A stretch of 34,186 nt of DNA from Tannerella sp. (lineage in GTDB: Bacteria; Bacteroidota; Bacteroidia; Bacteroidales; Tannerellaceae): NCBI GenBank assembly GCA_031285685.1, contig JAITVS010000282.1, forward strand, positions 1 through 34,186, written 5' to 3'. This document shows positions 554 through 24,997 of this stretch, in pieces. The position numbers and the translations under genes were made by a program. The notes beneath the pieces are model-generated. The model had not been told where the DNA came from. It was given only the letters and a program-made list of their open reading frames with translations, and did not search any database. Within the stretch, counting starts at the first letter, position 1. Each line of letters starts with the position of its first letter.

Positions 554-3500
554 TTAGAAATTAACACTAGCTCCGATGGTAAATACTTTAGCTTGCGGAT
601 AGGTTCCGGAATCAAGTCCGTTACGTGAACCAACTTCCGGATCGTAACCCCTGTATTTTGAGAAGGTCAGTAGGTTGTCACATTGAATATAGAATCTCAG
701 GTTACTGATCAATGCTTTTTTAGTTACACTTGTCGGAAGCGTATATCCTAATTGCAGAAGTTTTAAACGCAGATAATCTCCATCTTCGATGTATAAACTG
801 CTTACACGCGAAGTATTTGAATTAGGAGCATCGTCTTCCACCACACGCGGCCAGAAGTCGGATGTTCCTTCACCGGTCCATCTGTTCAGCCATTTGCGGT
901 GCCAATTTGCATACGGAACATTGGGACGGCGGTCATAGTTGAATATCTGATTACCCGCTACTCCCTGAAAGAATACGGAAATATCAAAATTTTTCCAGTC
1001 GGCGTTCAATGTAAAACCATAGACCCAATCGGGATTCGGATTTCCGATCATCTTAAGGTCTTTATCATCAATCAGATCGTCTCCGTTTAAATTTTTGAAC
1101 CGAACGTCTCCCGGTTGTGCATTCGGTTGTAACAGTTTTCCGCTGGGACCGACATGTGCGTTTACTTCGTCCCAGTTCTGGAAAAGGCCATCATGAACAT
1201 ATCCGCGGAAATAACCGTAAGGCATTCCTGATTCAACGATTGCAACGTCCGGATTGGCCAGACCTGCTCCCAGAGAGGCGATGGATGAGAAGCCAGGGCC
1301 CCGGTCAGTAACGACATTTTCTAAATAGGAGGCATTAGCGTTCATCGAAAAATTGACGGCGCTTACTTTAAAGCGGTAATTGACATCAAACTCAAAGCCC
1401 TTGTTGTTCATGGTCCCCGAGTTGGCATTCATACCCCAGTATCCTAAGTATTTGGGAGTTTGCAGCCATAAAATCATATCTTTGGTTTTTTTGTCAAAAT
1501 AGTCTACAGAGAAAGTCAATCGGCTGTTCAGAAGCCGGAAATCAAGTCCGAAATTTGTCTGTTCGGATGTTTCCCACTGAATCGCGGGGTTAGCGTAACC
1601 GCTGGATACCATACTGACATAAATAGCATCATCCTTTCCTTTACCCAAAGCGACATTGTTTGTTCCCTGATTTAACAAACTGGTATACTGGAATCCTCCG
1701 ATACTTTCATTTCCGTTTCTACCCCAGCTGGCGCGTAGTTTAATGGCGTTCAGCCATTCCGGTTTGGATTCCATAAAACTTTCTTCCGTTATATTCCAGC
1801 CGGCCGAAACCGACGGGAAATTAGCATATTTGTTAGCCGGTCCGAAATTGGAAGAACCGTCGCGGCGGATGACCAGACTTAACATGTATCTCTCGGCATA
1901 GTTATAAGAGAGGCGTCCGAAGAAGGAGGCTAACCTGTGTTGGTTCACATAATCGTCTACCCTTTCTAGTGATCTCTCTGCGGCGGCGCTGTTCAGGTAC
2001 GCATAATCCATTCCGTACCGTAGTAAGTTATAATCGTCTCCCCAAAGGCCTGAACTCTCAGAACTTAAAGCCGATTGGCCGGCTAACAGCGAGAATTGGT
2101 GTTGGCCGATTTGTTTGTTGTAACTCAATACATTTTCTACCTGCCAGGTAAAGCTCTCATTTTTAGAATGACCGACACTTGAATTGGTATTCACATTCGC
2201 TGTGGAAATATAGAAAGGAACGGAGTAACTTCTGGAACCCCAGAAGCCCCATGCGAAGCCGAAGTTAGAACGGAAGTTCAATCCCGGTAATATTTCAATA
2301 TTCAGATTGAGGTTCCCGTTGAAATTATTGGCCTTATGAAGTGAATTGTTGGATACTTCACGAACAGCCAGCGGATTACCTAACTCACGCATGTTGATAA
2401 TGTTATAGGCGCGTCCGTCTTTATTTTTTACATAGTTGGGATATATTTTATCATAAGTAGCTAATACGGAAGGATCATCCTGATAAATCGCTTCGTTCGG
2501 AGGAGTGAGCGCCATAGAGGTCAATACGCCGGAAACATCGCTGTTGTTACCGATTCCCATGGACTCCGTATGGGAATAGCTGATATTCGTTTCAAGAGTC
2601 ACTTTGGGTAGCCAGAAACGCGCTTTATCTTCCATTACCGTATATGTATTATTGAAGCGTGCATTATATCGTTCATAATATGAATTGTCACTGGCTACTA
2701 CTCCCTTCTGGTTCAGGTATCCCAGAGATACATAATACAGGCTTTTTTCATTACCCCCCGAAAGCGAAAGCTTATGATTATAGACCGGTGCGTTCGTATT
2801 TAGCAATTCATCCTGCCAGTCTGTGTTGTATGCCGGATACGTTGTCGGATCGCTAAGATTGAAATTAGGATAAGTGGGCGCTTTGCCTCCATTCAGATTC
2901 ATTTCATTCACCATCATTTGATATTCGGTGGCGTTCATATAATCTAATTTTTTCGTTGGGCTTTGCCATCCGTATGATCCTTCGTATGTTAATGACGCTT
3001 TGGAGACAGACCCCTTTTTGGTTGTAATCAAAACAACGCCGTTCGCACCGCGGGTACCGTAAATAGCAGCGGAAGCAGCATCTTTTAAAACTTCAACCGA
3101 TTCGATATCGGAAGGGTTGATATTATTAATCGCGTCTACCGGCATCCCGTCTACCAAATACAACGGATCCGAATTGTTGATGGTCCCGATACCACGGATC
3201 CTCACTTTTGCTCCGGAACCGGGCGCTCCGGATTCGGAAACGATCTGTACGCCGGATACTTTTCCTTTAAGCGCATTCTGGAAGGTTGTCGGACTTCCTT
3301 TAGCAAGTTCATCTCCTGAAACCTGACTGATGGCTGCCGTAACGACACTTTTCTTCTGTACGCCGTAACCGATTACGACGACTTCCTCCAACAGTTGAAG
3401 ATCTTCAGAAAGTATTATTGCATAATGAGTTTTCCCTGTTTCAATTTTTATCGTTTGCTTTTCGTAGCCGATGTATGATACTTCAATTTCCGAACCGGCA

Positions 3501-3745
3501 GGTACATTCAGGCTGAACCGGCCGTCAATGTCTGTAATTATACCGTTAGAAGTGCCCTTTTGTGTTACATTGGCACCGATAACGGAATATCCGTCAGAAG
3601 CAGAAGTAACAACTCCACTGATCTTTATATTAGTCTGGGCTGCAACCTGTAGCACATAACTCATCCAAATGCAGGTGATTATAAATACTCGTTTTATTGT
3701 TTTGAATGACCAGTGTAAATGAAATTTTTTTAATTTTTCATCCAT
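554..3745 (-). CDS. SusC/RagA-family TonB-linked outer-membrane transporter
   Basis: This 1063-residue protein is the TonB-dependent channel for oligosaccharide import across the outer membrane. In order: an extended N-terminus with a membrane segment at about 17-37 ending AAQ (signal peptide); a carboxypeptidase-D regulatory-like domain at about 40-112; the TonB-box-like segment EEVVVIGYG at 120-128; a plug domain with the SusC hallmark GANGVVLITTKKG at 233-245; then the beta-barrel to a C-terminal Phe, as outer-membrane barrels usually end. The length is typical for SusC (about 1000-1100). It pairs with the SusD lipoprotein 11 bp downstream. No sigma/anti-sigma signalling extension is seen, so transcriptional control probably comes from the XylR-type regulator nearby, through the direct repeats about 370 bp upstream. 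The substrate is not identifiable from sequence alone. Confidence 0.97.
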   Translation of the reverse strand: MDEKLKKFHLHWSFKTIKRVFIITCIWMSYVLQVAAQTNIKISGVVTSASDGYSVIGANVTQKGTSNGIITDIDGRFSLNVPAGSEIEVSYIGYEKQTIKIETGKTHYAIILSEDLQLLEEVVVIGYGVQKKSVVTAAISQVSGDELAKGSPTTFQNALKGKVSGVQIVSESGAPGSGAKVRIRGIGTINNSDPLYLVDGMPVDAINNINPSDIESVEVLKDAASAAIYGTRGANGVVLITTKKGSVSKASLTYEGSYGWQSPTKKLDYMNATEYQMMVNEMNLNGGKAPTYPNFNLSDPTTYPAYNTDWQDELLNTNAPVYNHKLSLSGGNEKSLYYVSLGYLNQKGVVASDNSYYERYNARFNNTYTVMEDKARFWLPKVTLETNISYSHTESMGIGNNSDVSGVLTSMALTPPNEAIYQDDPSVLATYDKIYPNYVKNKDGRAYNIINMRELGNPLAVREVSNNSLHKANNFNGNLNLNIEILPGLNFRSNFGFAWGFWGSRSYSVPFYISTANVNTNSSVGHSKNESFTWQVENVLSYNKQIGQHQFSLLAGQSALSSESSGLWGDDYNLLRYGMDYAYLNSAAAERSLERVDDYVNQHRLASFFGRLSYNYAERYMLSLVIRRDGSSNFGPANKYANFPSVSAGWNITEESFMESKPEWLNAIKLRASWGRNGNESIGGFQYTSLLNQGTNNVALGKGKDDAIYVSMVSSGYANPAIQWETSEQTNFGLDFRLLNSRLTFSVDYFDKKTKDMILWLQTPKYLGYWGMNANSGTMNNKGFEFDVNYRFKVSAVNFSMNANASYLENVVTDRGPGFSSIASLGAGLANPDVAIVESGMPYGYFRGYVHDGLFQNWDEVNAHVGPSGKLLQPNAQPGDVRFKNLNGDDLIDDKDLKMIGNPNPDWVYGFTLNADWKNFDISVFFQGVAGNQIFNYDRRPNVPYANWHRKWLNRWTGEGTSDFWPRVVEDDAPNSNTSRVSSLYIEDGDYLRLKLLQLGYTLPTSVTKKALISNLRFYIQCDNLLTFSKYRGYDPEVGSRNGLDSGTYPQAKVFTIGASVNF

Positions 3746-4185
3746 AATAAGTTATTTTAAATGGTAAGTATTTGTGTCTCATTGTATTCAAATCTGAAAT
3801 AGAGTAGCTTTCGAATAATTAGAGAGCATGAGCAGAATAACTACTTTGTTTTTCAGATTATTATCTCTATTGGCGGGTTGTTGACTTTTATTTTTTCATA
3901 AGCAGACATATTTTTGCGGTTTATATTAAGTATCAAATTATTAGTAAAAATCCAAAAAGAAGTTGATCATAAGCGGCATATTTCTGTTTGATGATTAATA
4001 AGCAATGCTATGCAAAATCAGCAAATCTTAAAATAGGATTAATCACAACCGTTTTTGTGAATATTTTCAATGCAATATTAAATTATGTTTATTTATTCGG
4101 GGTCGGATATTTATCAAAAATCTTCCAAAAACTATCAAAACATCTCCGGATGATAACTATCAAACCATTAAACTTATTTTCAAAC
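3746..4185. other. 440-bp non-coding region upstream of susC
   Basis: This A/T-rich gap separates susC from the upstream beta-helix gene. It holds the putative regulator-binding repeats and -7 box described separately (4073-4164). If that promoter is real, susC has an untranslated leader of roughly 320 nt. Within the leader there is an imperfect direct repeat at 3896-3922 and 3967-3990, sharing TCATAAGC and CATATTT. A plus-strand open frame at 3988-4233 has no recognisable features and is most likely chance. I see no convincing intrinsic terminator for the upstream gene. Confidence 0.6.
4073..4164 (-). promoter_or_regulatory. Putative XylR-type operator and activator-dependent promoter for susC
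   Basis: On the minus strand, TTTTGATA occurs at 4140-4133 and again at 4119-4112, exactly 21 bp apart. A third partial copy, TTTGATA (4164-4158), lies 25 bp further upstream. A degenerate -7 box TAATATTG (4080-4073) follows 32 bp below the last repeat and there is no TTTG -33 element, as expected for an activator-dependent promoter. The same spacing recurs upstream of the 1005-residue gene. Binding by the neighbouring AraC-type regulator is inferred. Confidence 0.5.
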
Positions 4186-7100
4186 TTATTTGATCCGTAC
4201 GCTGAAAAGCGACGAACGCCCGGTGATGAATAATGTGTTATTATCTGTCCCTCCGAACCGGATGGTAGACGGACGTTCAGGAATATCGATCTGTTTTTTC
4301 AGTTTGCCTTCTTTATTGAATACGAGTACCTGTCCGTCTGCAATATAGACGTTTCCTTCGCTGTCGACAGTTGAACCGAACTCTCCCCATTCAACAAAAT
4401 ATTCGGATTCGGATAAAGTACCGTCGGTATCCACCTTCATACGTACGGTTCGCTTGTCGTATTCGTCCGAAGCATAGAATAACTGACCCGGATAGGCTTC
4501 CAATAGTGCGGAACTACGTGCGATATCGTACTGATCAGGTATGATTGTTTTTCCGTCGGGTGCTACGAAACACATTTCCGGAACATAATTAACCGTTTTG
4601 CTAAAATCATGAAAATCTCTCCATCGGTTAGAAGGATACAATGCTTTGGTTACATTTTTCACAGAGCCCATTTTTACTTTGGGTAATATGGTGAAGGTAT
4701 TGTCCGGATCGGAAGGGGTAATGGCGTAAAATCTTGTTTCAAAACCGGAATTTCCCCAGCCGGCAAAAGAGGTCCCGTGTGAATCGGGATAAGAGGCGGC
4801 AACTTCCTTTTCTCCGTTGATAAGCAATCCGGGCTGAGGGCGGTATTTGACTGCGACAAGCAGATTGTCATTCGTATCGCATCCTAAAGAATAAGGTTCC
4901 CACGGGAAATCCGTAAGTAAAGAGATTGTATTGGTTGCTGCAGACCATTTGTAAATGCGCCTCATTCTTTGTTCGCAGAAATAAATATTACCCTTGCTGT
5001 CACTGGTGAGCCCTTCGGCAAATTCAAAGCCGGTGGCTAATTTTTGCACTTCTCCAATCGGGCAGGTTAGGGGTGGAATACGAAGTTCTTTACCGGTAAC
5101 AACCAAACGTTGAAGTTCCCAGGGGCGAACCTCGATGTTTTTGTTTATGTCATATACCGGATTATCTGTTGTGTATTTTATCTGGGAGTAGTTATGCAGG
5201 TTCAGGAATTCGATATTTTCACAGTTATCCCAGATGCGTACGGAGTTGTGATAGGGCTGGTTGATCCGGATGACACGGAACATATAAAGATTTGCAAAAG
5301 TAATGTCTTTGCATCCCTGCATTTCAACCGGTTGGCAATCTGTGCCTTCAACCGATTCTTCTTCCAGTTGAAAACAGTAAATTTTCCAGTCGGATACATT
5401 TCTGAACGTGGCTTCATTCCTTACATGGTGTTCCAACGACATGGCATAGATACGTCCCGGAGTTGAAGTATTGCTTACGTATAAACCGCTGGTTGCATAA
5501 GTTGATGCAGTCCATATATCCTTGAATGTTCCGCCTCCGTTGTTTGTGATCCACAAACTCCAGTATTGATTATCCCATGCCAGGTCTTTTCCCTGTGCAT
5601 AGATGGGGTGGGAGGGAGAGCTTATCCCCGGTTCCTGCCAATGCCAGGTTGGCGTGGGTTGACCGGGTACAGGTCGGTGCAGGCCTCCGTGGCCGCCTAC
5701 AAACTTTACATCGTTAAGATAAGACATTGCTCCGGCCATCCATTTGATTCCGACTGCACGGTAATTGAATCCTCCGGTATTGATGCCAATTCCATTCAGC
5801 ATGTTCGTTCCTCCTTCCGATGACTCGAGCATTGCTTTCGGGCCACCGAATCCGCTGAATGCAGGAGCGCTTTCCGGCAGACGGAATTGTGTGCCGAACG
5901 GGTGGAGTCCGATCAGTTTGGTCTGCGGTTTCATCCGTAATGTCTCTGTTATTTTGTACCATCCCTGGGGTATATAGATATGATCGTATGTATCGATAGC
6001 ATTCTGAATCGCTTTTGTATCATCGATCATATCGTCTCCCACGGCTCCCAGATCACGTATGTTTACCCATGTTTCCATAGGAGGTAATGATGGGATATCG
6101 CGAAGCAGCGCCGGAGGCATTTTTGTAATCGGTTCGATGTCCGCAATGGTCCGGTACTCGGGTTTTGCAGACATGTCATCCATTTGTAAGCCATGGGCAT
6201 AGTTGTTGATTCTGTATATTTTATGACCTGTGCCTGTCGTTGTCTGACTGCGGCGATATTCGGCAATTACAGGCGTATTACGGCAGACGACATTGTGGAA
6301 TGTGATCTGGTTATTGCTGTTATTTTCGTTGCTGATACTGACGATCGTTTTACTTATATTTTCGAAATGACCGTTTTCAACGAATAAACGGTCAGCATAA
6401 TTGTCTTCGATATCAAAAACAACAGGACTGTTTTTTACCTGTATATTGACCATGGCGAGACCGGATTCCTGACAATGGAGTGCTGCCGTTCGTTGTCCTT
6501 CGAAATAAGAATCGACCATCATCACAGGCCATCCGGGAGAAGCCTTGGTTGTATAAATACCATAATCACCACCGAAGAATGCGACGTTTTCCATCTCATT
6601 TCCCGCATCGAAAAGACCGGCTTTACCTTTTCCCGTGTATATAGCTACATGATTGATAAAACTATGTTGCGCATAATGGGTGCGAAGCGCCACGGCATGC
6701 GGGTTTCCGTCTTCAATACGCAGGTTGATATTTGACATAGCGCTGTAAAATGTTCCGGCATTCGCGTCATTTATATTGTCTTCGGAGCGGACAATACTTC
6801 CGGTAAACCAAAACATATAGGAGGCTTTTCCCTTGTCTGCCGGATTTTCTTGCTGAAAGCCGGGGGAATTGCGTGCCAATATAAATTCGGGACGTTTTTT
6901 GCCATAGCCAATTAATCGGATGGCTGAAGGGATATATATTGTCTGGGTTATTTTGTATTTGCCTTCAGGTATAAATAGTATTCCGAAATTTTTCTCTTTT
7001 TTCAATTCATTAATTGCCTGTTGCAACATTTCGGACACGTCTGTTTTCCCGTCATTCGTAATCGGATAACGCTCCGGAGTGAAATAAAAAGCTTCGGGGT

Positions 7101-7203
7101 CTTCCGGACGTTGTGTATATACGGAGGTTAATTCGATAGCCCGGATAGGAACTGATACTACCAGACATAATAGGACCAGTAAATTTTTTGCGTGTTTGTT
7201 CAT
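4186..7203 (-). CDS. Secreted fusion: two pectate-lyase-3-like beta-helix segments plus SMP-30/NHL-like propeller
   Basis: A 1005-residue protein with a signal peptide at about 1-22 (ending IRA). Residues 40-110 carry a beta-helix opening (YPITNDGKTDVSEML, then FIPEGKYKITQTIYIP), typical of pectate_lyase_3/GH28-like folds. A second such opening begins at about 379 (VNIRDLGAVGDDMIDDTKAI, then IYIPQGWYKITETL) and extends to about 700. From about 720 the sequence changes to a propeller style (FEFAEGLTSDSKGNIYFCEQ; later STVDSEGNVYIADG), resembling SMP-30/gluconolactonase or NHL repeats. The catalytic class is uncertain: these folds include lyases and hydrolases of acidic polysaccharides, and I cannot assign catalytic residues. 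It lies 440 bp upstream of susC on the same strand and is divergent from the XylR-type regulator. Its likely role is periplasmic or surface glycan processing for this SusCD system (inference). Confidence 0.85.
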   Translation of the reverse strand: MNKHAKNLLVLLCLVVSVPIRAIELTSVYTQRPEDPEAFYFTPERYPITNDGKTDVSEMLQQAINELKKEKNFGILFIPEGKYKITQTIYIPSAIRLIGYGKKRPEFILARNSPGFQQENPADKGKASYMFWFTGSIVRSEDNINDANAGTFYSAMSNINLRIEDGNPHAVALRTHYAQHSFINHVAIYTGKGKAGLFDAGNEMENVAFFGGDYGIYTTKASPGWPVMMVDSYFEGQRTAALHCQESGLAMVNIQVKNSPVVFDIEDNYADRLFVENGHFENISKTIVSISNENNSNNQITFHNVVCRNTPVIAEYRRSQTTTGTGHKIYRINNYAHGLQMDDMSAKPEYRTIADIEPITKMPPALLRDIPSLPPMETWVNIRDLGAVGDDMIDDTKAIQNAIDTYDHIYIPQGWYKITETLRMKPQTKLIGLHPFGTQFRLPESAPAFSGFGGPKAMLESSEGGTNMLNGIGINTGGFNYRAVGIKWMAGAMSYLNDVKFVGGHGGLHRPVPGQPTPTWHWQEPGISSPSHPIYAQGKDLAWDNQYWSLWITNNGGGTFKDIWTASTYATSGLYVSNTSTPGRIYAMSLEHHVRNEATFRNVSDWKIYCFQLEEESVEGTDCQPVEMQGCKDITFANLYMFRVIRINQPYHNSVRIWDNCENIEFLNLHNYSQIKYTTDNPVYDINKNIEVRPWELQRLVVTGKELRIPPLTCPIGEVQKLATGFEFAEGLTSDSKGNIYFCEQRMRRIYKWSAATNTISLLTDFPWEPYSLGCDTNDNLLVAVKYRPQPGLLINGEKEVAASYPDSHGTSFAGWGNSGFETRFYAITPSDPDNTFTILPKVKMGSVKNVTKALYPSNRWRDFHDFSKTVNYVPEMCFVAPDGKTIIPDQYDIARSSALLEAYPGQLFYASDEYDKRTVRMKVDTDGTLSESEYFVEWGEFGSTVDSEGNVYIADGQVLVFNKEGKLKKQIDIPERPSTIRFGGTDNNTLFITGRSSLFSVRIK

Positions 7204-7238
7204 GGTATGTTTTGTATTTTTATCGTATTTATCGTTGG

Positions 7239-7306
7239 CAATTTTACTGATATTCCATCATGAAGAGGTTTAATTAATATCATAATAGTTTCGATAGCTA
7301 TCATAA
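7239..7306 (-). promoter_or_regulatory. Putative XylR-type operator and promoter for the 1005-residue gene
   Basis: On the minus strand, TTATGATA occurs at 7306-7299 and 7285-7278, a direct repeat with a 21-bp period (two helical turns), the arrangement AraC-family activators commonly bind. A degenerate -7 box TAAAATTG (7246-7239) follows 32 bp below, and no TTTG -33 element is seen. A 10-bp palindrome GATAGCTATC (7293-7302) overlaps the upstream repeat. The architecture matches that upstream of susC. Regulation by the adjacent divergent gene is inferred. Confidence 0.55.
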
Positions 7307-7350
7307 AGACTCTGTAGTGTGATTTTTTATGAAAGAAGCTGTTTTTGTAC

Positions 7351-7381
7351 TTTGTCTGTTTACAGATTTATATTATGTTTG
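7351..7381 (+). promoter_or_regulatory. Bacteroidales-type promoter of the XylR-like regulator gene
   Basis: TTTG (7351-7354), a 19-bp spacer and TATGTTTG (7374-7381) match the Bacteroides consensus TTTG-N19-21-TAnnTTTG exactly. Transcription would start near 7387, about 23 nt before the ATG at 7410. This rules out the in-frame ATGs at 7329 and 7383 as start codons of the main transcript. Confidence 0.75.
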
Positions 7382-7409: not shown

Positions 7410-8570
7410 ATGATTCGAATTATATTACTGACGGATTTTTCGGAGGAGTATGCCAAAAATTTACTGAAAGGCATTGCCCAGTATTCCAAAGGGCGTGGCT
7501 CCTGGGTTTTATGTAAAATGCCTCTTTCATACAGGGATGTATATGAAGTAGAGGGGGTACTGGAATGGGCGTTGAAATGGAAAGCGGATTGTATTATCGC
7601 CCAGTTTTATAATACGGACCGTGTCAGTATCTTCAGGGAAAATGGAATTATCGCTATAGCCCAGGATTTTAAACAGCGATTTACGGAAATTCTAAATATC
7701 ACAGGAGCGCATTATCATGCAGGACAGATGGGGGCCAATTATTTCATAAAGAAAGGGTTTAAAAATTTTGCTTTTTACGGTTTTAAGGGAGTTGTCTGGT
7801 CGGAAGAGCGTTGTGAAGGTTTTCGCGATGAGATCGAAAAGCATGGTTGGAGTAAAAATTTCTCAGAGTATCAGAATATTGAATTCAAAGATTTGTGGTT
7901 TTATGAATCGGCTCCTTTAACGGAATGGTTGCAGATGCTTCCGAAGCCGGTGGCTATTATGGCATGTGATGATAATCAGGGGCATCACATTATTGAAGCC
8001 TGTAATCAGAGCGGAATAAAAATACCGGAAGAAGTTGCCGTATTAGGTGTTGATAACGATGAAGCCGTATGTACTTTGTCGTATCCGCCTTTATCATCGA
8101 TTCATCAGGCGGTTGAAAAAGGAGGATATGAAACAGCGGAATTGATTGAAAAAATGATAAAAGATCCGGATGCGGCGTATGAAGATGTGATTGTTCACCC
8201 GACTCATATTGTTACCCGGCAATCGACGGATATCTATGCTACGGATGATAAAAGTATATCTGTCATACTGAAGTATATTCACCAGAATACGGATAAAAAG
8301 CTGAATGTTAATGATTTGTTGAAGCTTGTCCCATTGTCGCGCCGTTTACTGGAAACCCGTTTCAGGGAAGTAACAGGCTTATCCGTTTATTCATATATAC
8401 TGAACCTCAGAATACAGAAATTTGCCGAAAAATTGATTTACAGCAAAGATACGGTCGTCGAAATCGCCATGAAAATGGGGTTCACGGATTATAAGAATAT
8501 TTCACGTCAGTTCAAAGCGATAAAAGGGTGTACGCCATCCGAATATCGTTTGAAGCGGTCCGTAAAATGA
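7410..8570 (+). CDS. XylR-type AraC-family transcriptional regulator with LacI-like sensor domain
   Basis: A 386-residue regulator. Residues 1 to about 275 resemble the periplasmic-binding-protein-like sensor of LacI/XylR proteins (start MIRIILLTDFSEEYAKNLLK; later VAIMACDDNQGHHIIEACNQ; then EEVAVLGVDNDEAVCTLSYP). Residues about 285-386 form an AraC DNA-binding domain with two helix-turn-helix units, the second containing EIAMKMGFTDYKNISRQFKA. In the family, the N-domain binds a sugar and the AraC domain activates catabolic genes. I chose the ATG at 7410 because a consensus promoter ends at 7381, and because the protein then begins directly with the sensor beta-strand at normal family length. 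An in-frame extension to 7329 exists but would lie upstream of or inside the promoter. The gene is divergent from the beta-helix gene, whose upstream repeats are its likely targets. It is the only plus-strand gene in the window. Confidence 0.93.
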   Translation: MIRIILLTDFSEEYAKNLLKGIAQYSKGRGSWVLCKMPLSYRDVYEVEGVLEWALKWKADCIIAQFYNTDRVSIFRENGIIAIAQDFKQRFTEILNITGAHYHAGQMGANYFIKKGFKNFAFYGFKGVVWSEERCEGFRDEIEKHGWSKNFSEYQNIEFKDLWFYESAPLTEWLQMLPKPVAIMACDDNQGHHIIEACNQSGIKIPEEVAVLGVDNDEAVCTLSYPPLSSIHQAVEKGGYETAELIEKMIKDPDAAYEDVIVHPTHIVTRQSTDIYATDDKSISVILKYIHQNTDKKLNVNDLLKLVPLSRRLLETRFREVTGLSVYSYILNLRIQKFAEKLIYSKDTVVEIAMKMGFTDYKNISRQFKAIKGCTPSEYRLKRSVK

Positions 8571-9782: not shown

Positions 9783-9810
9783 AAAATATAAATGTATCAT
9801 TTTATATTTT
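9783..9810 (-). terminator. A/T-only hairpin overlapping the stop codon of the NagX-like gene
   Basis: AAAATATAAA (9783-9792) and TTTATATTTT (9801-9810) form a perfect 10-bp inverted repeat with an 8-nt loop. It sits at the end of the amino-sugar operon and overlaps the stop codon at 9802. With no G-C pairs it would be a weak terminator, so its role is uncertain. Confidence 0.35.
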
Positions 9811-11025
9811 GAGTTTTATATGTATTTTTCCCAACAGGTAAGTGATGCCGATTACCAGAAATGAATAAGCCGCACAATTCAATATGCCGGTAAAACCGGT
9901 AGTTAGCCATCCGGGTAATTGGATACCAATCATCGCAGTGATACTATAGGTGACATAAGGTACGAGATAACAGGTGAGGGTTGCGGTTCCGGCCGTTTTT
10001 ATCATATTGAACCAGTGAGCTTTTTCCTTTTCTACCAGTATGGAAATGAGCGCATAGGTTCCGACTGCAATAGCCGTACAGAAGAAGATCCAGGGAGGAG
10101 TATCCTGTATTTTTGATACAATCCAGAATTTGTGGGAAATAAATCCGGCTATCAATAATATTGCAACGGCAGATATTGTGAAAATTATTTTTTTACGATT
10201 ACCTGTATCCGCATATTTTGTAGCGAATAGCGAGAGGATGATTCCACCCATTGTGAAAGCGGGTAATCCGCCTTTTCCTGTGTGTAATATTTGCAGCATT
10301 TCATCGAAGAAGTTTCTACGTGGCAGATCTAAAATTATACCTCCATCCCGCATGCGGCTTTTTACGATGCAGAGAATGGTAAAGACAAGCCAGATCGGTA
10401 TGAGATATTTTAAGCGGTCGCGGGTGAATAGGTATATGAAAGCACATATCAGGTAAGTCCATCCAATCAAGCCTAAAATACCCCACCAGCGTGACCGGAA
10501 AAAACCACCGTCCGAGTCACGGAAAATAATGGCAAGCCAGACCAGGATGACCACTCCCAAGCCTTTGAGTATTGAGTATAACCGGTTTCTTTTCACGTTT
10601 TCCGTTCGTGGATAGACATTCCAGATCAGTAAAAATCCTGCCACCATCAGAATTCTGTAAACAGGCAAGGTAAGGCCGGTTTCCGGAGATAGCCTGGCTT
10701 CGGTGTTTACGATAAAGACTCCCATCAGTAGGAGCGCGAGCGAACGTGTAAGGATATGCCCGACTGTACTGACGCCGGACAATCCTTTGTTAAATCGCCC
10801 CTCTATGGCAAAAGGGATAGACATTCCCACTACAAATAAAAAGCATGGAAAAACAATATCGGCTAATCCCAGCATGTCCTGATCAGCGCTTGCGTGACCA
10901 AGCCATTCGGGATAACCGGATATGGTCCATAAATCATTGACAAATATCATCAAAAGCATAGTTAATGCTCTGAGAATATCAATAGCCACATTTCGTCCGG
11001 AGAAATCAGTTTTCGTTTTTGCCAT
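9802..11025 (-). CDS. NagX-like multi-pass membrane protein (DUF5009 / HGSNAT-like, COG4299)
   Basis: A 407-residue inner-membrane protein with about ten hydrophobic segments. Near the N-terminus it has RNVAIDILRALTMLLMIFVN, then DIVFPCFLFVVGMSIPFAIE, the signature of COG4299 proteins related to heparan-alpha-glucosaminide N-acetyltransferase and often called NagX. Human HGSNAT transfers acetyl groups from cytoplasmic acetyl-CoA to terminal glucosamine on the far side of a membrane. In bacteria NagX is recurrently found in amino-sugar loci, but its activity is less certain. It is the last gene of the operon, 12 bp after the GH20-like gene. A role in acetylating or moving periplasmic glucosamine is inference. 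The family assignment is firm, the reaction is not. Confidence 0.85.
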   Translation of the reverse strand: MAKTKTDFSGRNVAIDILRALTMLLMIFVNDLWTISGYPEWLGHASADQDMLGLADIVFPCFLFVVGMSIPFAIEGRFNKGLSGVSTVGHILTRSLALLLMGVFIVNTEARLSPETGLTLPVYRILMVAGFLLIWNVYPRTENVKRNRLYSILKGLGVVILVWLAIIFRDSDGGFFRSRWWGILGLIGWTYLICAFIYLFTRDRLKYLIPIWLVFTILCIVKSRMRDGGIILDLPRRNFFDEMLQILHTGKGGLPAFTMGGIILSLFATKYADTGNRKKIIFTISAVAILLIAGFISHKFWIVSKIQDTPPWIFFCTAIAVGTYALISILVEKEKAHWFNMIKTAGTATLTCYLVPYVTYSITAMIGIQLPGWLTTGFTGILNCAAYSFLVIGITYLLGKIHIKLKI

Positions 11026-11037
11026 GAGGGAAGTTTA

Positions 11038-12144
11038 TTAATTTATTGCTTTGTATGATTCAATCAGCTTTTTTAAGGTCAGGGCGTCCGATTCTGTTTT
11101 TGCCAGGGTTTCAGGATCATAGTAATTTTTAAGGAATCCTTCAGCCCCGGACCAGACGGTTGCTATTATTCCCCGGAAATGCTGTGTCATTTGAGGTGTT
11201 GAATTTTTTCTGTAACGGATCATATCGCTTAGTTGTTCCACAGCTATTTCCGGTTTGCGCCACGGACATGTGGCCACATCGAATCCTTTCATGGCAAAAT
11301 AAACGGCTGTTTGTTCGGGACGTTCATAATGCCAGTCGCAAATAAAAACATTTTCCGGTATCAGGTCGATTGCGCGATGTGTATTATTCATGCTGGCTTC
11401 CCACGCTCCAAGGCCTGTTGTTTTCCCGTCGATCAGACGGTCACCCCATATCATCAACCGTTTTCCCTGTATTGCCAGGTGATTGTGTATTTTTGTCACT
11501 TCGCCGGCAAATAATTCAGCTTTATCATAACCGGAACAACGCGGACATTTATCATCTCCGATGTAGAAGACTTCATCCATCCCCGCATGAAATAAATCCG
11601 CTTCAAATGCCTCCGTCAATTCGTCAACTAAAGCAAATACGATTTTATGAACATCAGGGTGCAGCGGGCAATAACTTTTACAGTATAAGCCATCGGGATT
11701 AGGCCAACCGGTATAGTCTTCTGTTTTTACATGGGGTGTTTCATCAAATTCCGGATATTCGCGAAGTAATGCGTAGGTTGTCTTTGCCCACGACTGATGT
11801 CCCAGCAAATTGATCTGGGGTGCCAGTTTTATTCCGTGTTCCTGACAGGCAGTCACTATTTTTTTTACATCGGCTTCCGTTAACGGATCCGGGTCTCTCA
11901 GCTCAGGGTGACATTTATAGTCATAATTCCAGTCGACCCGCAAAATCAACAGGTTGAAGTGAGCCGGGGCTAACTCTTCTTCAATGAACCGGAGGAATAG
12001 ATCCATTCCGGCTTTTTTAGGAGCTTCAATGGCAAGCCCACGTACAGGCAGGACAGAGTCGATCTGCCTGCTTTGATTTTGTGCATGTAGGTAATCGGCA
12101 CAGAGGATGCAAAACAATAAGATGAAAAATAAGACCTGTTTCAT
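11038..12144 (-). CDS. GH20-like beta-N-acetylhexosaminidase
   Basis: A 368-residue secreted protein: signal peptide about 1-21 (LHAQ), then a TIM-barrel domain of the GH20 type. The key motif is HAGMDEVFYIG at 186-196, where Asp190-Glu191 correspond to the family's stabilising Asp and acid/base Glu. Other barrel signatures are LLILRVDWNY (65-74), GIKLAPQINLLGH (104-116) and MIWGDRLIDG. GH20 enzymes release terminal beta-linked GlcNAc or GalNAc by substrate-assisted catalysis. At under 370 residues it has only the barrel and lacks the N-terminal GH20b domain of classical hexosaminidases. A CPRC pair follows the catalytic motif (199-202) and could bind metal. The position between ThuA and NagX-like genes, downstream of GH18, supports action on amino-sugar oligosaccharides. 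Exact linkage specificity is unknown. Confidence 0.82.
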   Translation of the reverse strand: MKQVLFFILLFCILCADYLHAQNQSRQIDSVLPVRGLAIEAPKKAGMDLFLRFIEEELAPAHFNLLILRVDWNYDYKCHPELRDPDPLTEADVKKIVTACQEHGIKLAPQINLLGHQSWAKTTYALLREYPEFDETPHVKTEDYTGWPNPDGLYCKSYCPLHPDVHKIVFALVDELTEAFEADLFHAGMDEVFYIGDDKCPRCSGYDKAELFAGEVTKIHNHLAIQGKRLMIWGDRLIDGKTTGLGAWEASMNNTHRAIDLIPENVFICDWHYERPEQTAVYFAMKGFDVATCPWRKPEIAVEQLSDMIRYRKNSTPQMTQHFRGIIATVWSGAEGFLKNYYDPETLAKTESDALTLKKLIESYKAIN

Positions 12145-14050: not shown

Positions 14051-16501
14051 TTAATACTCAATAGCTAATGAAATCCATTTGCCGGCCGATGTGACCCATA
14101 CTTCTTTATAGCAGGCATTGTTCGTCTGTGGCCAGTAAGGAATGTCTTCGTTATCTAAACTTCGGATCCCTACCGGCATTTCTCCGACCATCTCTCCGGA
14201 TGAGAAGCTGTCCATTTGCGGATAATTATGACCTTCACCATAGATCAGGGATTGTCCGAACGGGTTTTTACCCACCGTCCAGTACATTTGTTCCCGTCCG
14301 ATATTCAAAAGCGTTTCGTCGTTCAGGAATTTACCACAGAGCGCGGCGGCTTTTCCGGTGGAAAGATGAACGGCCGTATTCCCGTTGAAAATGCCGAACC
14401 ATACAGGAAAACGTTTGATGTAGTGCTCTTTATCTAATCGGGTACCTTTTGTCACCTGTTCGATATATAGTTCTTTTGCATTTTCCGGCGGGAATAAATG
14501 TAAGCGGTAAAAACCAAGTGAATCACGATGTTCGTCTATATGATAGATACCGCTTGGCAGCATACCGTAAGGTTCCGTATATATCATCAGTCCTTTCAGA
14601 TACTCTCCGTATAGCCGGATAGATTCGGCCCATTCCATATAGTCAGGGTGTTCAGGTTGTGTCTCGCATAATAATGTCATTGCCTGCATGAATACCTGTT
14701 CACGTGACTGATGGATATAGTGTACGATTGACTGGCGGGATTTATCGCGGTAAAAAAAGCCTTTCGTTTTATCCTTGTCTTTCAATGGATTTTTACGCTG
14801 ACAATCCAATGTAAACCGGATATAACCGGTCGCTGCTTCCGCATATTTTTTATCTTTAGTAAGTTTAAACAGCATACTGGCCGCCCAGGATATGGTTGCC
14901 ATATACTGACTTTCGGAAGTATTATATCCATGTTCATACATGTAAAGAAATTCACCGTATCCTTTTTCCTGATGGCGCTGTATCGCGAAATCGAAGTCTT
15001 CTTTTGCAACACGTACCAGATATTCCTGTAGCATCGGATCACGATCAATTGTCATCGCGGCATAAGCTTCGTATCCTGCATAAAGAAAATTATTGAATGC
15101 GAGGTTTTGTTTACGTACGGTCGAGATATCATCTAATGTGTTGAACATGCCATCCAGCCAGATTAACAACCCGACACTACTCGCTCTGTATCCGTCACCG
15201 AAACGTGTTCGCAGAATGAATTCCAACCCCCATTCGGCTTCTTCCAGCAAACGGGCGGCTAATAACGGATTTTTACCTTTGAGTTTGTTATATGCTTCTA
15301 AGAGCGAATAGGTGACATCCCCCGTTTGAAGTGTTTGCTGGGATAAATCGCCGGCATCATGCCAGCCTCCTCCGTATGATATTTTTATCCCGTTGTGAAC
15401 AGCGCAAAGATCCGTATGGCAAGTTCCGTGTTTGCCCGGAACGGGATAACCACAACGCTGACAGAAAATAAAATTCAATACTTTCCACAGGGAATTTTCC
15501 CATATGTTTTCTCCGATCTGAAATGCTTGTGTTTCAATGCCTCCAGCCTTTAGTTTGTATAGTCCCGGTTGGTTATAAGATGTGAAGTCAAGAACTTCAA
15601 AATTACCCGTCGTTGTTTTCTGCTGATTAATTTTTCCGTTAAAAACGGGCATGCCGCTGTTTACATCAATCAGTTCAAAATGATTGTGATGCTGATTGGC
15701 GAAATTGGCGATAGCCGTTTTCGTATCATTGAGCATGTAGCCTGTGGATGAGTATACGATCCGGTTGTTTCCCGGCATCCACCCACTTACCATTTCCGGG
15801 TCTTCGATTTGCTGTAATTCTATTTTGTCGATATAGTAGATCGATGTGTCTCCCGTAGTACGGTCTTTGCCTTTTACGCTGCAACTGAACCCGATGTTTT
15901 TTACCCGGTCACGGTTAAATTCTCCTAACTCGAAGAAACAACGGTTCCACTGGCGGTTAACCAGATTGATGAGATGGGATGCATGGTTACGCCCCTCTTC
16001 TCCGGACATGTTTTCGTTTTCAAAGGAAAAATTCAGGTTTACGACACGGGCTCCTTCACAATCAGGATAGATATAAAACTCAATCCGGTTGTATTTTTCC
16101 CAGTTTTCACCATTCACGGAGTAGTTTACATGAATATTACCGTATGTGGCATAATCAGGGTCGGAAGGAGAACCTTTTGCTCTGGTACCCGTAAATGCAG
16201 GAAATTCCAACCTAAGTGTTTGATCTCCGGTCATCGTTTTTTCTGTTGAAGAAGTTATTTTTCCTAATCCCTTGTGTTGCCATCCGGATATGTTTTTTTC
16301 CGGATTCAAAGATGTACTGTATAAAATCGTTTTTTTCCAATTATTCGCTTCATAGGAGCGGGATACGTCGAGAGGCAACGGGCTGTGAATCAGTCCGGTT
16401 TGAATTAATGCCCGGTTTAGTGCCGAGTCCCGACAGATCTGTACCTGGGCAGATATCGAACCGGTCAATAGAGATAGAATAAGTAACGTTAGATATCGCA
16501 T
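14051..16501 (-). CDS. GH9-family glycoside hydrolase with N-terminal beta-sandwich and CelD-N Ig-like domain
   Basis: An 816-residue secreted enzyme. Signal peptide about 1-18 (SISA); a CBM-like beta-sandwich at about 55-235; an Ig-like CelD-N domain at about 245-330; then the GH9 (alpha/alpha)6 barrel. Catalytic-side features are GGGWHDAGD (378 on; Asp382 and Asp385 are the usual base pair), a metal-binding-like set CQRC...CH (Cys347, Cys350, Cys361, His362), VGKNPFGQSLIYGEGHNYPQ, and the C-terminal KEVW with Glu800 as likely acid. GH9 is mostly endoglucanases, but some members in chitin-catabolic clusters are exo-beta-glucosaminidases. Here it sits between GH18 and ThuA genes in an amino-sugar operon, so glucosaminidase or chitosan-type activity is more likely than cellulase (inference from context). 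Confidence 0.9.
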   Translation of the reverse strand: MRYLTLLILSLLTGSISAQVQICRDSALNRALIQTGLIHSPLPLDVSRSYEANNWKKTILYSTSLNPEKNISGWQHKGLGKITSSTEKTMTGDQTLRLEFPAFTGTRAKGSPSDPDYATYGNIHVNYSVNGENWEKYNRIEFYIYPDCEGARVVNLNFSFENENMSGEEGRNHASHLINLVNRQWNRCFFELGEFNRDRVKNIGFSCSVKGKDRTTGDTSIYYIDKIELQQIEDPEMVSGWMPGNNRIVYSSTGYMLNDTKTAIANFANQHHNHFELIDVNSGMPVFNGKINQQKTTTGNFEVLDFTSYNQPGLYKLKAGGIETQAFQIGENIWENSLWKVLNFIFCQRCGYPVPGKHGTCHTDLCAVHNGIKISYGGGWHDAGDLSQQTLQTGDVTYSLLEAYNKLKGKNPLLAARLLEEAEWGLEFILRTRFGDGYRASSVGLLIWLDGMFNTLDDISTVRKQNLAFNNFLYAGYEAYAAMTIDRDPMLQEYLVRVAKEDFDFAIQRHQEKGYGEFLYMYEHGYNTSESQYMATISWAASMLFKLTKDKKYAEAATGYIRFTLDCQRKNPLKDKDKTKGFFYRDKSRQSIVHYIHQSREQVFMQAMTLLCETQPEHPDYMEWAESIRLYGEYLKGLMIYTEPYGMLPSGIYHIDEHRDSLGFYRLHLFPPENAKELYIEQVTKGTRLDKEHYIKRFPVWFGIFNGNTAVHLSTGKAAALCGKFLNDETLLNIGREQMYWTVGKNPFGQSLIYGEGHNYPQMDSFSSGEMVGEMPVGIRSLDNEDIPYWPQTNNACYKEVWVTSAGKWISLAIEY

Positions 16502-16600: not shown

Positions 16601-17668
16601 TTAATAAATAATCGTTTCATAAACCGCTTTTCGTAAATCGCCCGTTTCATTATCTCCGTCGTAATCCCAGTACATCGCTCCCAATAATCCTTTTTCAATG
16701 ATGTAGTTACATTTAACAGCCAGAGAGCGGGGTGTATCGTAGCCGCAAACGAAAATGCCTGTCGAATCGGCCAGGTAGGGCGCCTGTGCTTTTTCATCCC
16801 ATTTCGGTATATATCCGGATAGTTTTTCAATGTCTTTGTAATCAATGAAATCCGGGATTCCTCCCATTCCTCCGCGTCCGTAAAACGGCATACCCAGTAC
16901 TAATTTATTTAACGGCACACCAGCCTCGTGGTGTTTCCGTACGGCATCGTCGGATGTATTCCCGCCACATTTGTCGGATGCGTATAAAGGTGAGTGATGG
17001 AGTGGGGCGGAGGCCATATCATAAGCCATGATATTGACAAAATCGATGAAAGGATTGATTGCCTTGAAATTGATGTATCCTGCACTGGAAGCGGATGCTA
17101 ATGTTAACAGTTTGTCCTTTCCAATGGATTCCCGGATATCTTTCATCAAAAGTGTGAAATGATCCGTATCATCCGGCGAAGAAGAAATTTTCGCCATGGA
17201 ACTGGTCGGATATTCCCAGTCGATATCAATGCCATCCAGATCGAACGCTTTTATAATCCGCAGGCAATCCCCGGCAAATTTTTTCCGGTTTACGGGATCT
17301 GCCGCCATTTCACTGAATCGTCCGCTTCCCCATCCTCCGATGGAAAGAAGTATTTTTAACGATGGGCGATCCTTTTTCAATTCGACGATCTGCTTTAACC
17401 GTTCTTCATTGTCGATGCGTATTCCGTCGAATGTTTCTTTTACATGTCCGAATGCGTAATTGATATGTGTCATATAGTTCGCATCCGGAATCGTTTGACT
17501 CCATGAGGTTACATAAACAATGATTACCTTCTCATTCGCTTTTATTTCCGCTTGCTGTTGTTTCGTTCCATTATCCTGCTTTGATGTATTTCCGCTGCAG
17601 GACATACATAAGACAAAAGAAAAAAGGAGGATACTATATATCTTGATTCTGTTCATTTTTTTGATCAT
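16601..17668 (-). CDS. GH18-family chitinase/endo-N-acetylglucosaminidase-like lipoprotein
   Basis: A 355-residue lipoprotein: hydrophobic signal then LCMSC, with lipidation Cys24. An in-frame ATG at 17656 (residue 5) would give a slightly shorter signal and is equally possible. The GH18 barrel shows LSIGGWGSGRF (108-118) and the catalytic motif LDGIDIDWEYP (144-154), with Glu152 as proton donor and Asp148/Asp150 supporting it. Later come MAYDM and LVLGMPFYGRG, standard GH18 substrate-site motifs. GH18 enzymes cleave chitin or the chitobiose core of glycans. It starts 12 bp after the MFS transporter stop and precedes GH9, so it likely makes short oligosaccharides for the exo-acting enzymes downstream. 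Lipidation suggests anchoring on the outer membrane. Confidence 0.94.
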   Translation of the reverse strand: MIKKMNRIKIYSILLFSFVLCMSCSGNTSKQDNGTKQQQAEIKANEKVIIVYVTSWSQTIPDANYMTHINYAFGHVKETFDGIRIDNEERLKQIVELKKDRPSLKILLSIGGWGSGRFSEMAADPVNRKKFAGDCLRIIKAFDLDGIDIDWEYPTSSMAKISSSPDDTDHFTLLMKDIRESIGKDKLLTLASASSAGYINFKAINPFIDFVNIMAYDMASAPLHHSPLYASDKCGGNTSDDAVRKHHEAGVPLNKLVLGMPFYGRGGMGGIPDFIDYKDIEKLSGYIPKWDEKAQAPYLADSTGIFVCGYDTPRSLAVKCNYIIEKGLLGAMYWDYDGDNETGDLRKAVYETIIY

Positions 17669-17680
17669 TTGTTATTATTT

Positions 17681-19000
17681 TTATTCTGCCGACTGTTTCA
17701 CTCTGGAGCCTATCAATGCATAGTATAGCATAAATAATTCTCCGAAAATCACGATAAACCAGGACCACCTCCAACCATGAATGGCGTCAGCAATTATTCC
17801 CTGCAGCAGTGGCAGTATAGCGCCGCCGACAACACCAATCATGAAGACACCGGAAGCAACGGATGTATATTTACCAAGTTTAGAAACGGACAATGTAAAA
17901 ATAGCGCCCCACATAATGGAGTGGAATAGTCCGACTGCTGTTAGTAGCCATGGATTATTGAAAGCGATAGCTAATGCTGCCAGGATTGTTGCGGAGACGG
18001 TAGTTACAACGAGTTGTACCCGGGGAGGTACGGTACTCAAAGAACTTCCCACCAGGCGACCGATCAGCATACCACCCCAATACAATGTGGCCATTAGCGC
18101 GGGTATGGCAAAATTTATCCCGAATAGTGTGAGCGAATCATTTCCGAAAAAAGAAAAGGGACCGTTTGCGGATTCCTGTTCGATCGCGTATAAATTGATG
18201 TTAGCTCCGATGCATACCTCGACGCCTACATAAAAAAAGATAGCAATGACGCCCAAAGTCAGGTGACTGAATGACCAGACGCTTTTATCCAATTTTTCTC
18301 CGGCTTCGGCTTTTGTTCCCTTGATGTCAGGTAAAGATAATCTGACTAATATCAATATGACAATACCGATAATTGATATTAATGAGAGGAATGGCATCAT
18401 TAACTGGCTGATCTGTACGTCTTCCATGGCGAGTCCCCCGAATACGACTCCTGTTACGAAGAAGGGTGCGATCGTCGTACCGATGGAATTGGCGGAACCG
18501 CCGATCGCCATTCGCTGAATCGGTTGGGTGCCTTTTACGTAACAAGCGGTCAGGTACGGATTAATGACAACCTGTAAAATAGTGGCGGAAGCTCCGACAA
18601 TGAATGATCCTAACAGGAAAATAAAAAAGCCTGCAGGAACAAGGTTGGCTCCTAATCTCAGGTTGGCTTCCGGAAATTGCACGGTAAACCAGGAAGAGAG
18701 AAAAAAACATCCTAAACCTGAAATCATGATGAATAATGAACGGATGAGCGTTCCTTTGTATCCGTATCTGGTTGTCCACCGTGAACCGACTCCTCCGCAA
18801 AGCGGATATGCCAGGAACCAGGAGAATGTAATCAGTGTGGCAAACGTGTTTTTTAAATTGCCTACTCCTGACAAAAATGTTTCTTTAAGTGGTCCCTGGA
18901 ATTGCGTGTTGGCGGTTGTCAGAAAACCAACGATAAAGAACAGGAAGACCATTGTAAGAAAAGGTCCGACGTAGCCTACTTGTTTTTCTTGTTGTGTCAT
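17681..19000 (-). CDS. FHS-type MFS sugar permease, likely GlcNAc/GlcN transporter (NagP-like)
   Basis: A 439-residue inner-membrane transporter with about twelve hydrophobic helices, of the fucose-hexose-proton symporter type (FucP/GluP/NagP). Family features include VFLFFIVGFLTTANTQFQGPL in the first helix region, ILQVVINPYLTACY in helix 5, and the GVEVCIGANINLYA segment. It lies 54 bp after nagB and 12 bp before the GH18 lipoprotein. In related Bacteroidota and gammaproteobacteria, such permeases next to nagB and a ROK kinase take up N-acetylglucosamine. Uptake of unphosphorylated GlcNAc or glucosamine followed by kinase action fits, because no PTS component is present. Substrate choice between the acetylated and free amino sugar cannot be read from sequence. 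Confidence 0.88.
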   Translation of the reverse strand: MTQQEKQVGYVGPFLTMVFLFFIVGFLTTANTQFQGPLKETFLSGVGNLKNTFATLITFSWFLAYPLCGGVGSRWTTRYGYKGTLIRSLFIMISGLGCFFLSSWFTVQFPEANLRLGANLVPAGFFIFLLGSFIVGASATILQVVINPYLTACYVKGTQPIQRMAIGGSANSIGTTIAPFFVTGVVFGGLAMEDVQISQLMMPFLSLISIIGIVILILVRLSLPDIKGTKAEAGEKLDKSVWSFSHLTLGVIAIFFYVGVEVCIGANINLYAIEQESANGPFSFFGNDSLTLFGINFAIPALMATLYWGGMLIGRLVGSSLSTVPPRVQLVVTTVSATILAALAIAFNNPWLLTAVGLFHSIMWGAIFTLSVSKLGKYTSVASGVFMIGVVGGAILPLLQGIIADAIHGWRWSWFIVIFGELFMLYYALIGSRVKQSAE

Positions 19001-19054: not shown

Positions 19055-19780
19055 TTAAAGAAGTCTGGCAGCGTCCGTATCCAGTATGAATTCACAATCC
19101 GGGTGAAGTTGTAAAACAGATGCGGGTATATCCGTCGTTACGGGTCCATGTAGCATTTTCTTGACAATTTCAGCTTTACTTTCTCCTTTGGCAACTAATA
19201 TGATCTTCCGGGCATGCATGATGTTTTTAATGCCTAATGTCAATCCGCCTAAAGGAATTTCCTGCGCAGTTCCGGTTTCTTTCCGTATCCGGCTTTCCAG
19301 TTCCTTATCCATAAAGGAGTGCCAGGCTTCACTTTCGAAGGGGGTACCCGGCTGATTAAATCCCAGATGGCCGTTTGTTCCTAATCCCAGTATCTGCAGA
19401 TCGATGCCTCCTCTTGCTTCCAGTGCCCGCTGAAATAATAAAGCTTCTTTATTGAAATCATCCGAATAAGTAGGAGGCATAATAAAATGATGTTCAGGTA
19501 TCCCTAACGGATCTATGATTTCGGTTTTTAGCATAGTAAAGCATGCACCGGCATATTCGCGGGGTACATTGGTTACCTCATCCAGACCGAATAAAGTGAT
19601 TCCGGATATATCAAACGGATCCTGCTTGTGTATTCTGCTGACATTCAGATGAATATTTTTAGTGGTTTTCCCTGTCGATAGCCCGATTACGGCTTTCGGA
19701 TTAATAAGCATTTCCCGTATGATACGCCATGCAGAGATACAATCAAATTCAGTCTCGTTTTTTACAATCGTTATTTTCAT
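19055..19780 (-). CDS. nagB: Glucosamine-6-phosphate deaminase
   Basis: A 241-residue cytoplasmic enzyme converting glucosamine-6-phosphate to fructose-6-phosphate and ammonia. Visible motifs: the phosphate-binding loop GLSTGKTTKNIH (33-44), GLDEVTNVP with Asp67-Glu68, the active-site LGLGTNGHLGFNQPG (131-145) with His138, and the C-terminal GPVTTDIPASVLQLHPD. It is shorter than E. coli NagB (266 residues) and appears to lack part of the allosteric C-terminus, as in other compact family members. It is 18 bp downstream of the ROK kinase and its leader overlaps that gene's stop codon, indicating one transcript. Together they give a complete route from cytoplasmic glucosamine to glycolysis. The nagA deacetylase needed for GlcNAc-6-phosphate is not in the window. 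Confidence 0.95.
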   Translation of the reverse strand: MKITIVKNETEFDCISAWRIIREMLINPKAVIGLSTGKTTKNIHLNVSRIHKQDPFDISGITLFGLDEVTNVPREYAGACFTMLKTEIIDPLGIPEHHFIMPPTYSDDFNKEALLFQRALEARGGIDLQILGLGTNGHLGFNQPGTPFESEAWHSFMDKELESRIRKETGTAQEIPLGGLTLGIKNIMHARKIILVAKGESKAEIVKKMLHGPVTTDIPASVLQLHPDCEFILDTDAARLL

Positions 19781-20797: not shown

Positions 20798-20920
20798 ATA
20801 CAATATTATTTACAAACTTCAGAAATGAGGTTTGATAATTGACAAAAAAGGTCGAAAGACTGTTATATTTGATATTTCCGGCAAAAAAGCTTCCTGCAGC
20901 TATTCGTGATTATGCCGGTT

Positions 20921-24823: not shown

Positions 24824-24844
24824 GAAACAGATACTTTATGAATA

Positions 24845-24852
24845 CAAAAATA
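24845..24852 (-). promoter_or_regulatory. Candidate -7 box for the HTCS gene
   Basis: Minus-strand TATTTTTG matches TAnnTTTG fully, 21 bp upstream of the ATG at 24823. The -33 position (about 24872-24875) reads CCTG, a weak match to TTTG. Transcription would start near 24838, leaving a leader of about 15 nt. Confidence 0.45.
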
Positions 24853-24864
24853 TTCATAAAAACC

Positions 24865-24899
24865 GGAAGTACAGGTTTGAATTCTGTTAAAAGACTTCC
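24865..24899 (-). terminator. Possible intrinsic terminator of the pentose operon after rpiB
   Basis: On the minus strand, GGAAGT pairs with ACTTCC and an inner ACAG with CTGT, with a one-sided 6-nt bulge. The hairpin is followed by GGTTTTTATG. It lies about 100 bp past the rpiB stop and just before the HTCS promoter candidate. The bulge makes this a moderate candidate only. Confidence 0.35.
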
Positions 24900-24997
24900 A
24901 TTCTCTGTTTTAAATATGGCTATAGCAGCCTGCTACCGGCAAATTGGTTATTTCGCGTTAAACTTACTAACTTTTACGGGAGAATAGAAAGCGATTT

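Follow-up and report, generated by a model that had tools for sequence, protein, structure and literature searches.

We analysed a 34,186-nucleotide stretch of DNA from Tannerella sp. (contig JAITVS010000282.1 of assembly GCA_031285685.1, positions 1 to 34,186; hereafter, the window), in which a direct repeat with a period of 21 bp stands at several promoters of one locus, and considered which of the regulators encoded there reads it. In the order of transcription, the locus starts on the minus strand with the gene of a hybrid two-component system protein (HTCS; 20921-24823), which carries the Pfam domains Reg_prop (a sensor propeller), Y_Y_Y, HisKA, HATPase_c, Response_reg and HTH_18 (AraC-type). 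Behind it lies an operon whose first gene encodes a ROK-family sugar kinase (19799-20740), followed on the same strand by genes for a NagB-like protein (19055-19780), an MFS protein (17681-19000), a GH18 protein (16601-17668), a GH9 protein (14051-16501), two ThuA-domain proteins, a GH20-like protein (11038-12144) and a DUF5009 protein (9802-11025), and by a frame without a Pfam match. A XylR-type regulator gene then follows on the plus strand (7410-8570), with a LacI-like sensor (Peripla_BP_3) and an AraC-type domain (HTH_18). The minus strand continues with the gene of a 1005-residue protein (4186-7203; hereafter, the lyase), the gene of a SusC/RagA-family outer-membrane transporter (susC, 554-3745) and a frame cut by the edge of the window. 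The GH18, GH20-like, NagB-like and ROK genes suggest that the signal would be a polymer containing N-acetylglucosamine (GlcNAc).

The XylR-type gene probably starts at 7410 and not at 7329, because the sequences of its homologues set in at about residue 28 of the frame as listed; with this start, the divergent intergenic region is therefore about 206 bp long. The promoter of this gene has both boxes (TTTG-N19-TATGTTTG, 7351-7381, plus strand), in a stretch that is conserved in genome G034.

The pattern TTWTGATA-N13-TTWTGATA occurs on the minus strand at two places in the window, in each case with no mismatch: before the lyase gene at 7306-7278 (TTATGATA-N13-TTATGATA) and before susC at 4140-4112 (TTTTGATA-N13-TTTTGATA). 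An earlier note on this DNA had reported both repeats, letter for letter as we find them, together with a further half-site at susC, and this is likewise present (GTTTGATAGTTATC, 4165-4152 on the minus strand, 25 bp further up than the first half-site of susC, as read directly from the DNA). The note had left it to a genome scan to decide whether the pattern is frequent at random A/T-rich positions. It is not: the whole genome of the window (G000; 5.58 Mb in 423 contigs, 91.9% complete and 5.0% contaminated) holds two exact copies, both inside the window, and none of the reversed pattern. With one mismatch allowed, 13 further scattered places appear, versus five for the reversed pattern. With up to two mismatches, the window gives two matches versus a mean of 0.34 ± 0.55 in shuffled sequences, of which 4 in 100 also reached two.

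Each 8-bp word is the head of a longer half-site of 21 bp, such that the repeat is longer than first noted. The predicted operator of the lyase gene comprises the half-sites TTATGATAGCTATCGAAACTA and TTATGATATTAATTAAACCTC (7265-7306, minus strand), and that of susC comprises TTTTGATAGTTTTTGGAAGAT and TTTTGATAAATATCCGACCCC (4099-4140, minus strand). Both are followed by a -7-like box on the same strand, TAAAATTG at 7239-7246 for the lyase, 25 bp after the start of an AAAC box, and TAATATTG at 4073-4080 for susC. The second TTWTGATA lies 31 bp from this box at both promoters (47-bp matches, 7285-7239 and 4119-4073); thus the equality of the two distances, as claimed before, stands, and its figure of 32 bp does not. 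The claim that both promoters pair a degenerate -7 box with the lack of a -33 TTTG was borne out, in that no TTTG occurs 17-24 bp before either box. A published promoter consensus, given in the accessible part of PMC7366714, includes TAnnTTTG and TTTG; a degenerate -7 box without TTTG would be as expected of activator-dependent promoters.

The lyase-side site is kept in one close orthologous locus, that of G034, where 39 of the 42 bases of the double half-site are the same (counted on the alignment) and the surrounding intergenic DNA is more diverged than the site itself; conservation in an orthologous locus, which the earlier note had proposed to examine, is thus observed for this site. Upstream of more distant homologues of the lyase gene (42-55% identity; G009, G061, G002 and G018), reading by eye revealed no such repeat, and nothing comparable was seen by eye upstream of six susC homologues at 44-47% identity, L123 being left out. 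Exact TTTTGATA repeats also occur in G008 and G028, with identical letters in both, ahead of a reading frame.

Promoters of the HTCS orthologues

Orthologues of the window's HTCS are found in 7 of 123 genomes of the family that were searched, the window's own included; the other six are 48-79% identical to it. A ROK-like gene, called as such from its N-terminal sequence or its place rather than from Pfam, follows the HTCS gene in all six, with two genes between them in G023; in G145 the copy is truncated where the stretch ends. In the window, the ROK operon is preceded by a third double half-site, ATATAACAGTCTTTCGACCTT and TTTTGTCAATTATCAAACCTC (20827-20868, minus strand), which stands in the same place in the six other genomes. 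Here TTTTGTCAATTATCAAACCTC, which is much like the lyase half-site, is followed after 18 bp by the -7-like box TAATATTG (20801-20808, minus strand), again with no TTTG 17-24 bp before it. The period is 21 at the ROK, lyase and susC promoters, and at all three an AAAC box of the proximal half-site (CGAC at susC) lies 25 bp before the -7 box.

We built a 73-bp model, anchored on the second AAAC box, from six promoter sites in five genomes other than that of the window (G034, G023, G089, G143 and two sites from G145), and scanned the window with it on both strands. The top three of all window positions were the promoters of ROK (61.3 bits), the lyase (33.7) and susC (24.5), and the fourth scored 8.9. 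In 200 dinucleotide shuffles the maximum was 16.9 and the mean 4.6, and the 1,371,772 bases of control DNA (L034-L112) gave no match above 16 bits. When G034 was left out of the model, the three promoters scored 39.3, 33.1 and 17.6 versus a shuffle maximum of 12.3. The training sites themselves scored 29.8-62.6 bits when each was left out in turn.

The model also matched sites that it had not been given: those before ROK in G137 (37.6 bits), before the HTCS gene (47.9) and susC (27.0) in G023, before the lyase gene in G034 (28.1) and before the HTCS genes of G137 (17.3) and G034 (16.2). The motif therefore stands before ROK in all six other genomes that carry the orthologue, five of them in training and G137 held out. 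A weak candidate site lies before the window's own HTCS gene (24844-24916, minus strand), with 8.9 bits in the full model and 15.8 for the repeat part alone, a score within reach of the shuffle maximum; its G034 counterpart is the one at 16.2. Weaker matches above 10 bits, at G023 17239 (11.2, at the susC start) and on the plus strand at G145 14263 (11.9), were not counted as sites, nor was a repeat-only match on the opposite strand beside the susC site of G023 (26.8). Contig C291 of G034 (L144), taken from the distant-homologue set, gave no match above 10 bits.

A pattern of half-site and -7 box derived from the three window sites matched, at up to two mismatches, three places in the genome, all in the window. 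These three follow by construction; the absence of other matches does not, and neither do the matches of the same pattern in G034, which are the ROK and lyase promoters. The reversed pattern had no match in either genome.

Which regulator reads the repeat

Which protein might bind these sites? The earlier note assigned the two repeats to the adjacent XylR-type gene, as a small regulon of that regulator. Its observation that two promoters share a 21-bp direct repeat, placed as for an AraC-type activator, holds, and the ROK operon joins them as a third; the reader that it named is not supported. The repeats follow the orthologues of the window's HTCS from genome to genome, as described above, whereas the loci of homologues of the XylR-type regulator share a different repeat that is missing at the window's promoters. 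On this comparison, we think it very probable that the repeat is the operator of the HTCS of 20921-24823, encoded in the same polysaccharide utilization locus, and that this protein uses the two half-sites, 21 bp apart and at a fixed distance from the -7 box, to activate ROK, the lyase gene and susC. The HTCS gene lies 13-21 kb from the lyase and susC sites within the same window, and an HTCS gene and a susC-type gene in one locus, 17 kb apart here, also share one contig in G023. All seven HTCS proteins have the same recognition-helix cores, MSRTSVYNKIK and KYFSTSFKKQFG.

This reading is consistent with what has been described for Bacteroides. In PMC3878776 (Ravcheev et al. 2013), comparative genomics predicted HTCS motifs that consist of directly repeated half-sites, on average 21 bp apart, and that stand before operons of polysaccharide utilization loci; this arrangement is taken there to reflect a dimer bound along one side of the helix. 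The systems described there resemble ours in the regulator gene within the locus, the AraC-type DNA-binding domain and the derivation of the motif; the half-site word and its exact placement 25 bp before the -7 box, in contrast, were derived here. The TTWTGATA repeat is, on its sequence, a real and partly conserved 21-bp direct repeat and a predicted operator. A new kind of motif, which the earlier note had thought possible, is not supported: the operator type is already published for HTCS (PMC3878776), and the window's set adds a further example. It provides a predicted operator for one HTCS group, with the half-site TTWTGWYA...RACC, period 21, and an AAAC box 25 bp before -7.

By analogy with published HTCS proteins, we can propose how the window's protein may work. 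According to the available text of PMC11253607, such a protein is held inactive by a contact between its receiver and DNA-binding domains, which is marked by an S/CHIP-DK motif, and phosphorylation releases it; the SHIP portion of this motif occurs in the window's protein at residue 1126. On meeting the glycan at its sensor, the protein would phosphorylate its own receiver domain, and the AraC-type domain would be freed. Two such domains may then occupy the two 21-bp half-sites (TTWTGWYA, an A/T-rich stretch and RACC) on one face of the helix. Because the AAAC box lies 25 bp before -7 at three promoters, the promoter-proximal half-site would replace the missing -33 box, which fits a contact with RNA polymerase. 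The bound HTCS could thereby recruit the polymerase and turn on the ROK-first operon, the lyase gene and susC together.

Several observations weigh against this interpretation. First, susC is the weakest of the three sites: without G034 in the model, it scores only 5.3 bits above the shuffle maximum, and with the 44-bp repeat part alone it reaches 14.1 bits and falls to fourth, behind 24916 (15.8), so that its rank is due in part to the spacer and the -7 box. It also has no close orthologous locus or copy for comparison. Second, the training sites were picked after the likeness to the ROK promoter had been seen, and thus not blind, although the lyase and susC sites themselves were unused. Third, the half-site words differ, with GATA at the lyase and susC and GTCA at ROK. 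Fourth, the XylR-type gene is adjacent and divergent, and is the nearest regulator to both repeats. Fifth, the genome encodes 25 further domains that match the DNA-binding domain of the HTCS at E ≤ 1e-15.

The fourth point leads to the alternative that the neighbouring XylR-type protein binds at the repeat as activator of the lyase gene and susC, its operator having drifted from the form used by its family. For XylRA of a marine bacterium, binding to two direct repeats rich in A/T has been reported (PMC12125979), and the window's gene resembles it in joining a LacI-like sensor to an AraC-type domain. The G034 orthologue of the window's protein (91% identical) keeps the site beside it, and the operator of the XylR-type family has the same 21-bp period and nearly the same distance to -7. 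We examined the loci of the best 80 of 98 confirmed homologues (44-91% identity). One of them, L033, repeats the regulator and site already seen on the G034 contig, which leaves 79 others (L034-L112). In none of these 79 does the exact TTWTGATA-N13-TTWTGATA occur, so that the conservation of the repeat next to orthologous regulators, expected from the earlier note, is confined to the G034 locus. A different repeat, CGYAA-N16-CGYAA, also of period 21, is shared instead, with 78 occurrences in 51 of the 79 loci, versus 1-23 for each of the 25 other gaps (6-15 and 17-31).

An iterated model from the same 79 loci, TTTGCGCAAATTG......AAATACGCAAA, gave 188 matches above 14 bits, counting both strands, in 74 of the 79, versus three in the same DNA reversed; training and counting used the same loci, and the spacing and -7 counts are independent of that training. 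Merging the strands leaves 107 sites. Measured from the start of the site, TAnnTTTG begins at 59 or 60 bp in 82 of them, and the opposite strand shows no comparable peak. Without the model, 53 of the 78 CGYAA matches, in 44 loci, have TAnnTTTG at a distance of 55 or 56 bp, counted from the first C. Examples of the module, TTTGCGCAAATTG...ATACGCAAA with TAnnTTTG at the fixed distance, are found at L042 11173, L043 11172, and L035 6323 and 11170. The window's promoters have no match to the CGCAAA-type pattern, and the best model score in the window, 12.6, lies inside the lyase gene. Moreover, in its recognition helices the window's XylR-type protein matches its L034 homologue (79% identical), and the locus of that homologue has the CGCAAA form. 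G034 has both the HTCS and the XylR-type homologue, whereas five genomes with the HTCS and the repeat (G023, G089, G137, G143 and G145) have no XylR-type homologue at E ≤ 1e-20. We therefore rejected the XylR-type protein as reader, since the repeat is in 0 of the 79 loci, the family operator is absent at the window's promoters, and the model from HTCS orthologues matches the sites; a drifted CGCAAA operator, considered because GATATTAAT is in both, was set aside for want of support from the family model. This alternative we regard as improbable. Adjacency had pointed to one AraC-type protein, and the comparison of promoters pointed to another.

It is less probable still that a different HTCS or AraC-type regulator of the genome, such as one of the 25 mentioned above, reads the repeat. 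Paralogous HTCS may have similar motifs (PMC3878776, accessible part); among the other HTCS-type DNA-binding domains of the genome, however, the nearest is only 54% identical, and the repeat follows the orthologues of the window's own HTCS in six other genomes. That the repeats are A/T-rich words that arose by chance and have no function is hardly credible, in spite of the one-mismatch places and the 4 in 100 shuffles, given that the two exact copies in 5.58 Mb both precede genes of one locus, that the lyase-side site is conserved in G034, and that the scores of an independent model exceed those of the 200 shuffles and the 1.37 Mb of control DNA.

The XylR-type regulator and its probable target in trans

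As a by-product, this comparison yielded a conserved module of operator and promoter, the CGCAAA-type repeat with TAnnTTTG, in a large family of XylR-type regulators from Bacteroidota; a literature search that covered few subscription papers found no prior description of it. One variant of this site, TTGACGCTTTTTGAAGATAATATTTCGCAATTT with TAnnTTTG at 60 (L024 1365, minus strand), lies beside a paralogous regulator of 41-45% identity, and is perhaps a sister operator type.

In the window's genome, a single place resembles the family operator, G000:C281:18416-18445 (L130, L133), with two mismatches to the pattern. This pattern match alone is not significant, in that the reversed pattern likewise gives two matches there; in the family model the site scores 17.7 bits, with TAnnTTTG at 60. 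Its G034 counterpart, C74:17172-17201 (L129, L134), has no mismatch, 25.2 bits and TAnnTTTG at 60. Both sites precede a susC-susD-ROK-GH2 locus, and the regulator is absent from the stretch read. L034 has an orthologous counterpart of the C281 locus, with identities of 77% (susC), 80% (susD), 70% (ROK) and 66% (GH2); there the regulator gene comes after ROK and GH2, and the operator precedes ROK. The GH2 protein carries an Ig_GlcNase domain. Judging from these sequences, the window's XylR-type gene has probably moved and acts in trans on the C281 locus. Two fragments, G000:C168:47873-48595 and G000:C330:5-403, are 43% and 49% identical to complementary parts of the XylR-type protein; they are perhaps one paralogue split between contigs, and this possible second regulator could read C281 instead.

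We tentatively consider, as a possibility with a small chance of being correct, that the two regulators form a relay in two tiers. The HTCS would sense a GlcNAc-type polymer, use the three repeats to activate ROK, the lyase and susC, and also affect the XylR-type gene by way of the shared 206-bp region; the XylR-type protein would then drive the exo-glucosaminidase-type locus on C281 in trans through its CGCAAA repeat. Such a relay may have originated when the XylR-type gene left an ancestral ROK-GH2-regulator operon, of the kind seen in L034, and entered the HTCS locus. If true, two amino-sugar pathways would be coupled.

Further features of the lyase and susC genes

In the lyase, two pectate-lyase-like beta-helix stretches (Pect-lyase_RHGA_epim) are fused to an SGL propeller, and residues 277-459 are weakly like a beta-1,3-glucanase (PDB search, E 2.6e-7). 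At susC, 328 nt separate the low end of the -7 box from the gene start (3746-4072), and about 340 nt do so in G145 by our own count. No Rfam family matched the window at the gathering score, and hence no known RNA family lies in the susC leader; a cis-antisense RNA or a leader element is possible there. In G145 (L154 14262/14263) and G023 (L141 17117/17118), the susC-promoter repeat lies directly beside a second repeat that faces the opposite way, whereas the susC gene of the window has, in place of this second repeat, the one extra half-site 25 bp upstream.

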